NCBI RefSeq assembly: GCF_019722725.1
Contig: NZ_CP077941.1
Coordinates: 620,001-684,000 of the forward strand
Length of the DNA stretch: 64,000 nt
DNA from: Vreelandella profundi
GTDB taxonomy: Bacteria > Pseudomonadota > Gammaproteobacteria > Pseudomonadales > Halomonadaceae
Direction of reading: 5' to 3'
In this document: piece by piece, positions 14,975-26,714 of the stretch
How the letters are laid out: each line of letters begins with the position of its first letter
Position numbering within the stretch: the first letter of the stretch is position 1
Notes under the pieces: model-generated
The model's database searches: none
Told to the model about the DNA's origin: nothing
What the model saw: only the letters and a program-made list of their open reading frames with translations
Position numbers and translations under genes: made by a program

Positions 14975-16285
<1,311 letters not shown>

Positions 16286-16317: not shown

Positions 16318-16357
16318 TGTAAGAGATGTCTCAATATTTTGTAAGAGATATCGTACA
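16318..16357 (+). promoter_or_regulatory. Two GacA-type upstream activating sites
   Basis: The Gac/Rsm upstream activating sequence is TGTAAG-N6-CTTACA. Site 2, TGTAAGAGATATCGTACA (16340-16357), matches it with one mismatch. Site 1, TGTAAGAGATGTCTCAAT (16318-16335), has a perfect left half and a weaker right half. The left halves are 22 bp apart, two helical turns, so both sites face the same side of the DNA. A third inverted pair, GGTAAG/CTTACC, lies at 16385-16407 with an 11-bp gap. GacA is inferred as the binder from the family consensus; no gacA gene is in the window. Confidence 0.75.
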
Positions 16358-16452
16358 AGTTCCGACGAAAATCGCTCTGGTTAGGGTAAGAAAATACGAA
16401 ACTTACCGCTAACTAAAGTTTAACTCATTGTTTTTTAAGATATAAAAGCTGA

Positions 16453-16480
16453 AAGGCGAGCCGATGCGGCTCGCCTTTTT
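16453..16480 (+). terminator. Rho-independent terminator, probably of eno
   Basis: AAGGCGAGCCG and CGGCTCGCCTT form an 11-bp perfect stem with a 3-nt loop (ATG), followed by T residues to 16480. It lies between the GacA-type boxes and the GGA-rich RNA, so it should insulate that RNA from eno read-through. Confidence 0.9.
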
Positions 16481-16495
16481 GCGTTATAGCCATGT

Positions 16496-16701
16496 TGAGA
16501 AGCCGCCGGGATCTGCCACAATGCAATCAGGACAAGGGGAGGCAGGGATGCTTTAGGCAGAATGCAGCAGGATGAAAGCTCGGAGGCGCCTGGTAATTAG
16601 TGGAGTGATTACTGGCAAGGACGTTTTCCGAAAGGGGTGTGACCTAGGGAGTGGTCAGAGGAAGTGCTTGGAGTGGGGCGGCCTAAGGGCCGCCTTTTTT
16701 T
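16496..16701 (+). ncRNA. rsmZ: RsmZ/CsrB-family regulatory RNA (CsrA-sequestering)
   Basis: No plausible protein is encoded. The strand carries 11 GGA motifs between 16509 and 16672, several as AGGA, GGGA or CGGA, the CsrA/RsmA recognition core. At least two sit in hairpin loops: an 8-bp stem at 16590-16615 with GTGGAGTG in its loop, and a 5-bp stem at 16640-16657 with AGGGA in its loop. It ends at a strong terminator (16677-16701). Two GacA-type boxes lie about 140-180 bp upstream of the presumed 5' end, and fdxA-mutS follow, as beside rsmZ in Pseudomonas. The 5' end is an estimate based on a possible -10 TTATAG at 16484-16489. By family, the RNA would titrate CsrA, encoded at 26526. Confidence 0.82.
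16677..16701 (+). terminator. Rho-independent terminator of the RsmZ-like RNA
   Basis: GGCGGCC (16677-16683) pairs perfectly with GGCCGCC (16688-16694) around a TAAG loop and is followed by seven T residues (16695-16701). No protein gene lies just upstream, which supports a separate non-coding transcript. Confidence 0.92.
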
Positions 16702-16795: not shown

Positions 16796-17119
16796 TCAGC
16801 GCTCTAGTTTTTCCATCTTACCGGTCTTGCCATCCCATTCTTCGGCATCGGGTAGCGCGTCTTTTCTTTCGACAATATTAGGCCATACGTCTGCCATCTC
16901 AGCGTTAATCTCAATAAAGGCTTCCTGCCCGTCGGGCAACTCATCTTCTGAGAATATCGCTTCGGCGGGGCACTCGGGCTCACACAGCGCGCAATCAATA
17001 CACTCATCCGGATGAATAACCAGAAAGTTCGGGCCTTCATAGAAGCAGTCGACCGGGCAGACTTCCACACAGTCGGTGTATTTGCACTGGATGCAGTTCT
17101 CGGTAACGACAAACGTCAT
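16796..17119 (-). CDS. fdxA: Seven-iron ferredoxin FdxA
   Basis: This 107-residue ferredoxin carries one 3Fe-4S and one 4Fe-4S cluster. Conserved cysteines are at 9, 12, 17, 21, 25, 40, 43, 46 and 50. By family, C9, C17 and C50 bind the 3Fe-4S centre and C21, C40, C43 and C46 the 4Fe-4S centre. The acidic C-terminal extension is typical of the Azotobacter-type ferredoxin I/FdxA family. It is monocistronic, transcribed away from mutS, and ends convergently with the RsmZ-like RNA, the arrangement known beside rsmZ in Pseudomonas. Physiological redox partners are unknown. Confidence 0.96.
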
Positions 17120-17272: not shown

Positions 17273-19834
17273 TTAGAGCAAGTCCCGCCATTGATAAAGC
17301 AGGGCGAGGGCTTCGCGCGGCGATAAATCATCCATATCGGTCTTTTCAAGTGCCTCAATCACCGGATGAGGCGTCGCGGCAAATAAATCGTTTTGCTGCG
17401 GCGTCGTTCGCGGCACTTGCGCACCGTTGTCCACATCGCGATGCTCTAAGCTGACCAGTTTTTCGCGGGCGCGTTTAATCACATGATTAGGCACGCCGGC
17501 TAGCTGAGCCACCTGCAGGCCATAGCTCTGGCTTGCCGGGCCTGCCTCTATGCGGTGCATAAACACAATGCTGTCGCCATGCTCGGTGGCCGTTAAATGA
17601 ATGTTGGCCACGCCGTCCATGTGTTCAGGCAGGGCGGTCATTTCAAAGTAATGGGTTGCAAATAGCGTTAGCGCGCGTCCTTTAGCTAAATGCTCGGCGC
17701 TAGCCCAGGCAAGTGATAGGCCATCAAAGGTGCTGGTGCCACGGCCAATTTCATCCATCAAAATCAGGCTTTGCTGGGTAGCATTATGCAGGATATTGGC
17801 GGTTTCGGTCATTTCGACCATAAAAGTAGAGCGCCCGCCAGCAAGATCATCTGACGAGCCAATGCGGGTGAAGATGCGGTCCAGCGGGCCGATGTCGGCG
17901 GCATCGGCGGGCACAAAGCTGCCGCAGTGAGCCAGCAGCGCAATTAACGCTGTTTGACGCATATAGGTCGATTTACCGCCCATGTTGGGGCCGGTAATAA
18001 TTAGCATGTGCTGATCAGGCGTAAGCGTAACGTCGTTAGGCACAAATGGCGTTGCGCTGACGTGCTCAACGACAGGATGGCGCCCGGCTTCAATGCGAAT
18101 GCCGGTGGCCTCGCTGAGTATGGGGCGAACCCAGCTAAGGGCCTCGGCGCGTTCAGCAAAGGCGCACAGTACGTCTAGCTCAGCGACGGCTTGAGAGGTG
18201 CTTTGCAGCGCATGCAGGCTGGCATTGAGATCACCCAGCAGACGGTCATAAAGCCATTTTTCACGCGTCAGCGCGCGCGATTTGGCTGACAGCGCTTTAT
18301 CTTCAAACTCCTTGAGCTCTGGAATGATAAATCGCTCGGCATTTTTCAGCGTCTGGCGACGTATATAGTCGGCCGGCGCCTGCTGCGCCTGGGAGCGGGG
18401 TAGCTCAATAAAGTAGCCATGCACTCGGTTATAGCCGACTTTAAGGTGCGCCAAGCCGGTGCGCTCACGCTCGCGAAGTTCGAGCTGAATAAGATAGTCG
18501 CCGGCGTTTTCGGCCATGCCACGATGCTCATCAAGCTCGGCGTCAAAACCATCAGCAATCACGCCGCCATCGCGGATGACCACGGGCGGGTTCTCGACCA
18601 GCGCGCGGCTCAGCATATCGGCCATTTCCGGATAGGGGCGAATATGCGGGCGCAGGGTGTCCAACGCACTGCCGCTCTCTACCTCACTCAACTGCTGTTC
18701 AAGCGTGGGCAGCGTTACTAGTGCGTCTCTAAGGCGTGCTAAATCTCGTGGGCGGGCGCTATACAGTGCCACGCGAGCCAGAATGCGCTCAACGTCGCCG
18801 ACGGCGCTCAGGGTATCGCGCAGCGGCATGTAGGCGGCATCTAGGCTGAGCAGTGCTACGCCCGCATGGCGTGCCTGGACAATCTCGCGCTGGCGCAGGG
18901 GGCGGTTAAGCCAGCGCTTGAGCAGTCGCGAGCCCATGGCGGTGGTGCAGGTATCCAGTACGCTGGCCAGGGTGTTGTCGCTATTGCCGCCGAGATTGAT
19001 GTCAATTTCCAGATTACGTCGGCTGGCCGCGTCGATGACCACGGCATCATCACGATTTTCAACGCTGATCGCCGTGACGTGGGGTAGGCGCGAGCGCTGG
19101 GTGTCGCGGGCATAATCGATCAATACGCCCGCGGCAATCAGTGCGGTGGTTAAATGCGCGCAGCCAAAGCCGCGCAAATCCTGAACTTCAAACTGATCAC
19201 ACAGGCTGCGGGTAGCGCTGTCTATGTCAAATAGCCATTCGCCCTGACGACGCAGGCTGCGCTTTTGCGACCAGGCATCCGGCAGCGTTAAGCTTTCTGG
19301 TACGAGCAGCTCAGCGGGGGATAGACGCGTGAGCTCGGCGAGCATTTCGGCTTCGCTGTCTACTTCCAGTACGCTGAAGCGGCCGCTGGAAAGCTCAAGC
19401 CATGCCAGGCCCCAGCTATCCTTGCCGGGGGAAACGGACACCAGTACGTTGTCGCGGCGTGCATCGAGCAGCGCTTCGTCGTGGAGCGTGCCGGGGGTGA
19501 CGATACGAACCACCTGGCGGTCAACGGGGCCTTTGCTCGTCGCTGGATCGCCAATTTGCTCGCAAATAGCTACCGACTCGCCGCCGGCAACTAAGCGTGC
19601 CAGGTAGCCTTCAGCGCTGTGGTAGGGTACGCCAGCCATTGGGATGGGTTTGCCGCCTGACTGCCCGCGCTGGGTAAGCGTGATATCCAATAACGCGGAG
19701 GCACGTTTCGCATCGTCGAAAAATAGCTCGTAAAAATCCCCCATTCGGTAGAACAGCAGTACCTCGGGGTGTTCACGTTTGATCTTTAAGTATTGCGTGA
19801 TCATTGGCGTATTCGGGGGGATGGCCTGTGACAT
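17273..19834 (-). CDS. mutS: DNA mismatch repair protein MutS
   Basis: This 853-residue protein recognises mismatches and small loops and starts repair with MutL. The N-terminal mismatch-binding domain has the F-Y-E motif in [12 protein letters not shown] (about residue 35). Connector, core and clamp domains follow, and the C-terminal ATPase has Walker [12 protein letters not shown], the signature [14 protein letters not shown], Walker [17 protein letters not shown] and the FATHYFEMT segment. The C-terminal tail contains the tetramer region. It is transcribed divergently from pncC and recA, matching the Pseudomonas fdxA-mutS-cinA-recA order. Confidence 0.98.
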
Positions 19835-26525: not shown

Positions 26526-26714
26526 ATGCTCATTCTAACTCGCCGTGTTGGCGAAACCCTGATGATCGGTGATGAAATGACCGTCACGGTGCTAGGTGTG
26601 AAAGGTAATCAAGTGCGTATCGGCGTTAACGCGCCGAAAGATGTGTCGGTTCATCGTGAAGAGATTTACCAGCGCATTCAGCGTGAAAAGAACAGCGAAA
26701 GCGAAGTGGAATGA
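26526..26714 (+). CDS. csrA: Carbon storage regulator CsrA/RsmA
   Basis: This 62-residue homodimeric RNA-binding protein recognises GGA motifs, usually in hairpin loops near ribosome sites, and controls translation and mRNA stability. It has the near-invariant [16 protein letters not shown] start. The key RNA-binding residues L4 and R44 (VSVHREEIY) are both present. The Shine-Dalgarno is AAAAGGAG, itself containing a GGA that could allow autoregulation (inference). The 192-bp gap after lysC probably holds its own promoter. Its likely antagonist RNA lies at 16496-16701. Confidence 0.98.

Follow-up and report, generated by a model that had tools for sequence, protein, structure and literature searches.

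The gap between eno and fdxA in the genome of Vreelandella profundi carries no annotated gene, and an earlier note on this DNA, written from the letters alone, had proposed that it encodes a small RNA of the CsrB/RsmZ kind; we asked whether such an RNA gene is present there and what it would do. Vreelandella was formerly classed as Halomonas. In Halomonas anticariensis, GacS/GacA has been demonstrated to govern quorum sensing, exopolysaccharide and biofilm; a 2020 review lists GacS-GacA and a predicted CsrA for that species and enters the sRNA as 'Unknown' (PMC7366521). A search of the full-text literature, mostly non-subscription papers, on Halomonas or Chromohalobacter together with Rsm/Csr RNAs, GacA, CsrA, sRNA or RNA-seq found no such RNA described among the matches listed, and the main text of a prediction paper (PMC5568370) makes no mention of Chromohalobacter, Halomonadaceae or fdxA. 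We analyzed a stretch of 64,000 nucleotides (the window; positions 620001-684000 of the 3.64-Mb single-contig genome) and compared the locus with its counterparts in the family. From the sequence evidence described below, we consider it highly probable that the eno-fdxA gap encodes a GacA-activated, CsrA-sequestering sRNA of the CsrB/RsmZ kind.

The unannotated sRNA gene is located at 16529-16701 on the forward strand, its start being placed from the -10 element and its end at an intrinsic terminator (16675-16696, followed by a T-run) found by a terminator scan; the predicted RNA is thus about 170 nt long, somewhat shorter than the 180-210 nt that the earlier note had expected. It is preceded by a sigma-70-type promoter (16495-16522, from a promoter scan and from conservation), a TTGAGA-N16-CACAAT pair with TTGAGA at 16495-16500 and the extended -10 element TGCCACAAT at 16514-16522. 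Upstream on the same strand lies an ORF (14996-16285) that we take to be eno, encoding enolase, and that served as the eno query. Downstream and convergent lies fdxA (7Fe ferredoxin; 16796-17119, minus strand), identified as an ORF and by the family-wide search and standing as it does beside Pseudomonas rsmZ, followed by an ORF on the minus strand (17273-19834) that is presumably mutS. Since the stretch follows eno on the same strand, and since the GacA-type boxes are themselves part of the eno 3' untranslated region, it might be no independent gene at all but the 3' untranslated tail of eno, left as a processed mRNA end after read-through past the first terminator. However, a hairpin with a T-run, the eno terminator, stands between the boxes and the sRNA promoter (16452-16478; the scan lists it on the minus strand, the stem being symmetric), so that both terminators invoked by the earlier note are in place, and a promoter with a conserved extended -10 element stands just before the RNA.

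We examined the GGA content and the fold of the V. profundi sequence by itself. The 186 nt of 16490-16675 contain 11 GGA motifs, and no 186-nt segment of the window has a higher count, be it on the plus strand (mean 1.75) or on the minus strand (mean 1.27). Ten of them are inside the predicted RNA (at 16530, 16538, 16546, 16570, 16582, 16602, 16619, 16648, 16660, and 16670), while that at 16509 belongs to the promoter spacer. The count of 11 given previously stands, over 186 nt; shuffling of the segment's own letters gave 6.7 ± 2.1. The segment is G-rich, and 181 of 5000 shuffles reached 11, so that the excess in the single sequence is modest (about 2 sd). The GGA motifs at 16602 and 16648 sit in predicted hairpin loops, in agreement with the earlier statement that at least two are so displayed. 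The folding energy was not unusual (z -1.29), as 18 of 200 shuffles folded equally well. With a modest GGA excess and an unremarkable minimum free energy, the single sequence would not decide the matter; the comparison of relatives does.

The family-wide comparison was anchored on fdxA, which was present in 149 of 151 family genomes, and covered 97 oriented eno-fdxA gaps with an alignable eno, named duplicates included. In most of these gaps, 7-13 GGA motifs fell within 165 nt and a GacA-like box was also present. The sRNA was missing from short gaps in genus g4 (Salinicola; 12 gaps of 133-452 bp) and in a few other genomes, such as G007, G038, and G146. A covariance model, R1, built from an alignment (A1) of 53 family sequences, recognized one strong copy in the V. 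profundi genome, with 125.3 bits at 636531-636701 (16531-16701 of the window) and a next best match of 16.2 bits. Across the family, R1 scored at least 49.9 bits in 111 of the 151 genomes, a number tallied by hand from the score rows and checked by genus, and the next weaker match had 31.5 bits; 53 of the 111 had given rows to the model and 58 had not. At E ≤0.01, with weak matches included, the number was 123 of 151. No genome of genera g3, g4, g5, g13, g17, g18, g22, or g24 reached 49.9 bits. Named loci outside the model also scored, namely L052 (94.4 bits), L034 of Vreelandella jeotgali (75.2 bits), L064 (63.7 bits), and L069 of Cobetia (58.1 bits). The GGA motifs and the GacA boxes, on whose persistence in related genomes the earlier note had staked its proposal, were both conserved in most genera at the same locus.

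The position of the RNA in other genomes bears on its independence from eno. The sRNA lies 1.2-2 kb from fdxA in four genomes (G117, G102, G142, and G150) and 16-22 kb from it in G016/G037, and thus persists without the usual arrangement. Further, the eno-fdxA gap of Larsenimonas suaedae (L043, 3491-4210) holds four tandem copies, with R1 scores of 55.6-68.6 bits. Together with the intervening terminator and the promoter, these arrangements make it extremely unlikely that the stretch is merely the tail of the eno transcript. Tandem copies were also seen in G031 and G046, and neither GacA nor a box was found in these Larsenimonas genomes. A second Rsm RNA in the V. profundi genome was considered and, on a genome-wide search with R1, discarded, as R1 gave only weak matches besides the one copy. 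Strong GacA-like palindromes at four other places (L195, L196, L200, and L201) were likewise rejected as Rsm RNA sites, being accompanied by neither a GGA-dense RNA nor a match to an Rsm model of Rfam. A search of the plasmid collection gave no match.

The alignment A1 was examined for covariation. In its consensus structure, 97.4% of the cells were paired, compared with 35-49% for slid structures; 213 cells had changes on both sides of a pair versus 75 in shuffles, and the covariation score was 0.390 versus 0.168. None of 500 shuffles reached the paired fraction, the count of cells changed on both sides, or the covariation score, and the measure of 'further pair types' barely exceeded the shuffles, 35 of 500 of which reached it. 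The 53 rows contained 10.2 GGA motifs per sequence, as against 5.1 after shuffling. Four alignment columns are GGA in 53/53 rows and a fifth in 52/53, the single row without it being that of V. profundi itself. In the hairpin at 16641-16657 (GACC...GGTC), four of the five pairs have changes on both sides, and its loop presents GGA 16648, an invariant column. The central long helix (16580-16632) has on its 3' side GGA 16619, invariant in 53/53 rows, and at its tip in V. profundi GGA 16602, which occurs only in that row, in a loop peculiar to the species.

Judged from sequence, the conservation of the GGA motifs across the family is stronger evidence than their count in a single sequence, and it bears on a reading in which the conserved sRNA does not sequester CsrA but acts with a different partner, for example in Hfq-dependent pairing with mRNAs, so that its GGA motifs would come as a side effect of its G-rich, structured nature. 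Such a reading draws on the count in V. profundi, which lies only some 2 sd above shuffles, CsrA binding being predicted here from the known class. Against it, GGA motifs are twice as frequent as in shuffles over the 53 rows and stay invariant while the flanking helices change, a GacA-type box stands at a fixed distance, and CsrA is present. We therefore regard an RNA with a different partner as very unlikely, and a CsrA-sequestering RNA as the preferred reading.

How the RNA relates to families already described was examined with Rfam, whose models the earlier note had suggested as a check. None of them recognized the RNA. At the gathering level, the only Rfam matches in the window were three tRNAs; PrrB_RsmZ (RF00166) scored 9.7 bits at the locus versus the 44 needed, aligning to the terminator only. 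In a scan of 61 family genomes, none had an RF00166 match over the cut-off, and the only V. profundi match, of 14.1 bits, lay elsewhere. Scans of 20 loci and of 13 loci likewise gave no Rfam family match over the cut-off for the Halomonadaceae RNA. The V. profundi RNA is thus outside the PrrB_RsmZ family as drawn. Matches of RF00166 below the threshold were seen beside fdxA in G004 (39.0 bits), G056 (32.9 bits), G046 (30.8 bits), and G031 (26.3 bits); matches of similar strength lay away from fdxA in G022, G014, and G020, and when matches with E values as high as 10 were admitted, the model responded in 7 of 14 control genomes as well. In the reverse direction, R1 reached only 3 of 10 Pseudomonas rsmZ genes with 14.6-16.8 bits, no higher than an antisense chance match of 17.6 bits in L052.

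The Rfam RsmZ model matched next to fdxA in 10/10 Pseudomonas-labelled loci scanned (72-138 bits) and gave no match in the other ten loci scanned, including Stutzerimonas L050, Atopomonas L059, and six of Halomonadaceae. Published maps of the rsmZ region, in the part of the paper that we draw on, show fdxA, mutS, nlpD, and rpoS (PMC4353343). The parallel with Pseudomonas rsmZ drawn by the earlier note accordingly holds on the fdxA-mutS side, the other neighbor in V. profundi being eno and not the rpoS region. Further likenesses to Pseudomonas RsmZ are the GacA-type box far upstream, the many GGA motifs with some in loops, and the intrinsic terminator; several Pseudomonas loci, such as L033, L037, L038, L039, and L053, also have a pair of TGTAAG motifs, 23 bp apart. 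In contrast to RsmZ, the V. profundi RNA is about 170 nt long versus a 133-position Rfam model, its primary sequence is too distant for Rfam, and the Halomonadaceae RNA has its own consensus fold and invariant blocks. From the gene order and the kind of RNA, orthology with Pseudomonas rsmZ is likely, though not proven by sequence, and as far as can be told the RNA would work like RsmZ.

Other members of the class were compared in the same way. CsrB and CsrC of enterobacteria (RF00018 and RF00084) are described, in the part of the account that we cite, as GGA-rich CsrA sponges whose transcription UvrY, the GacA orthologue, activates from a far-upstream palindrome (PMC4682653), and the mechanism that we propose by analogy is the same. 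Unlike these RNAs, the V. profundi RNA is shorter, with no csrB/csrC synteny seen and no Rfam match in the window; in one relative (L026, among 13 loci scanned), the CsrC model gave 28.8 bits over the RNA (E 4e-5), below its cut-off of 61. The Csr sRNAs Pf1-Pf3 of Pseudoalteromonas fuliginea, another marine, non-model gammaproteobacterium, are known to us from portions of two papers (PMC9927453, PMC11882849); they belong to a different order from Vreelandella and are likened here by description, not by sequence. With multiple conserved GGA motifs, several of them in hairpin loops, a GacA/UvrY-type palindrome upstream, and both CsrA and GacA encoded, the RNA is, by its sequence features, a new and divergent representative of the CsrB/RsmZ class.

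The two TGTAAG motifs begin at 16318 and 16340, 22 bp or about two helical turns apart, so that two sites on the same helical face are present as had been claimed, the distal one with only its left half intact. The proximal box (16340-16357, TGTAAG AGATAT CGTACA) differs by one mismatch from TGTAAG-N6-CTTACA and keeps its position relative to the RNA and the promoter; in the distal box (16318-16335, TGTAAG AGATGT CTCAAT), recognized from the sequence and from relatives, the right half is degenerate. Seventeen other gaps of the genus (L004-L013, L017, L018, and L021-L025) and L034 have a second TGTAAG with the same 22-bp spacing, and most same-genus relatives have the exact palindrome, where V. 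profundi has one mismatch. Of 82 loci, 65 had a best box with at most two mismatches, starting within an interquartile range of -194 to -191 from the model start, whereas a reversed control pattern never did better than three mismatches. A -10-like element, by a motif defined after the sequences had been inspected, was matched in 57 of 77 loci scanned, 35 of the 57 having exactly TGCCACAAT, and TTG[AT][GC] stood 19 nt before it in 47 of the 57. From the box center to the extended -10 element, the median distance was 166 bp (interquartile range 165-167, range 109-188; 50 loci whose box had no more than two mismatches), and that in V. profundi is 165.5 bp. The generic palindrome with at most two mismatches was hardly enriched in the V. 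profundi genome (59 places versus 40 for the reversed control), and we therefore relied on stricter matches with a conserved position.

We also searched for the protein partners. The V. profundi genome has a single CsrA match, the csrA gene at 26526-26714 on the plus strand of the window, whose product is the presumed partner of the RNA, and a single UvrY/GacA match that passes the curated cut-off, with 288.3 bits; the ORF after gacA we take to be uvrC. Of the 151 family genomes, 130 had a GacA match (NF007018, E ≤1e-60), with 231-307 bits. A renewed search at E ≤1e-10 covered all of the 21 misses but G118, with G121 as a positive; the best match among these 20 had 110 bits, as against the 231-307 bits of the 130, so that these matches are other response regulators. 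The box (at most two mismatches) was present in 63 of 73 loci whose genomes encode GacA, as against 2 of 9 whose genomes lack it (82 loci; Fisher p 1.4e-4, which takes genomes as independent and ignores kinship). The seven genomes with neither box nor GacA are confined to the three genera g8 (Larsenimonas), g10, and g15, and the sRNA was kept without GacA or box in g15 (10 genomes; L184-L187 examined) and in g10 (L190). The two exceptions that kept the box without a GacA match at E 1e-60, G144 and G118, are in genera that otherwise have GacA; a recent loss of GacA or an assembly gap may be involved. Ten genomes had GacA and a poor box: in seven the box was degenerate at the usual place (-191 to -207), in two it lay elsewhere, and Cobetia G006 had none. 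In genus g4 (Salinicola), GacA was found in 18/18 genomes in a divergent form under the cut-off (231-261 bits), and G146 likewise has a divergent GacA. For g4 and for G146, the sRNA was absent from the eno-fdxA gaps examined, with no strong R1 match in the genome.

These distributions were weighed against the possibility that the RNA is a CsrA sponge outside GacA control, the boxes serving another LuxR-type regulator. The persistence of the RNA in genera without a GacA match (g8, g10, g15, and g16) would fit this, as would Cobetia G006 with its GacA and RNA but no box, GacA binding being a prediction here. On the other side, the boxes resemble in form the rsmY/rsmZ sites shown in the cited part of a published study (PMC4353343), and the box is missing where GacA is missing. 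Control by a different regulator thus appears very improbable, with GacA as the probable activator.

The conserved RNA, its covarying helices and invariant GGA motifs, the promoter and box at a fixed spacing, the presence of CsrA and GacA, and the association of the box with GacA were all computed here. By analogy with the known class, as set out in parts of earlier studies (PMC4682653, PMC10482370, PMC3985676), transcription of the gene, binding of GacA, binding of CsrA, and an effect on targets would be expected. Upon activation of GacS/GacA, phosphorylated GacA would bind the TGTAAG palindromes, which lie some 166 bp ahead of the promoter, and so induce transcription of an RNA of about 170 nt, terminated at 16675-16696. 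Through its ten GGA motifs, of which some sit in covarying hairpins, this RNA would then bind several CsrA dimers, and the sequestration of CsrA would free the mRNAs that it represses.

GacA-type boxes were further searched for beyond the sRNA locus. A stricter pattern, TGTAAG-NNATNN-CNTACA, occurred at three places in the V. profundi genome: at the sRNA, in the gap between tssB and hcp, and upstream of a vgrG. It was found in 39 of 41 genomes of the genus, with 134 forward matches versus 3 for the reversed control. The divergent tssB-hcp gap holds a perfect palindrome (L196 1501-1518, genome 2969324-2969341). Among the 41 same-genus genomes, 18 have hcp, and in the 17 of these 18 loci with a readable start (L215-L231), a palindrome lies about 340-430 bp before hcp in every case, perfect in 16 and with one mismatch in one. 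The V. profundi vgrG has two upstream boxes 23 bp apart (L201 1501-1541; genome 2479146). Of 20 further box places taken from six genomes, with the hcp boxes excluded and a single sRNA box retained, six lie just before vgrG (L264, L266, L267, L269, L271, and L277), amounting to 6/14 in genomes with hcp and 0/6 in the two genomes without it. Other GacA-type boxes lie near a gene for a BapA-like adhesin, one for a GGDEF protein, and a polysaccharide-synthesis gene (L276, L268, and L281), which would fit a biofilm regulon.

As a motif-level prediction, the palindrome before hcp hints that type VI secretion is a direct target of GacA. In P. aeruginosa, one study found GacA binding upstream of rsmY and of rsmZ and nowhere else (PMC9159945), and control of the type VI secretion system is described in a section of another as running through RsmA (PMC10482370). 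A literature search on Halomonas, type VI secretion, and GacA found no report of direct GacA control among the papers listed. If the hcp and vgrG boxes work, they would contradict, for Vreelandella, the P. aeruginosa rule that GacA binds only at rsmY and rsmZ. A wider proposal, for and against which we see the balance as even, is that GacA in Vreelandella directly activates type VI secretion, at the divergent tssB-hcp promoter and at vgrG, and forms a feed-forward circuit together with the sponge RNA, while in g8, g10, and g15, where GacA and the box are gone and the RNA is kept (in four tandem copies in Larsenimonas, g8), the sponge has come to respond to a different input. The joint loss of GacA and box while the RNA stays offers a natural experiment on a sponge RNA changing its input.

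Taken together, the locus provides a candidate CsrA-binding sRNA for most of the family, and R1 finds the RNA where Rfam does not. It would be the missing middle piece, in these bacteria, of a Gac/Csr circuit well known in Pseudomonas, and the circuit thereby becomes testable in industrially used halophiles.
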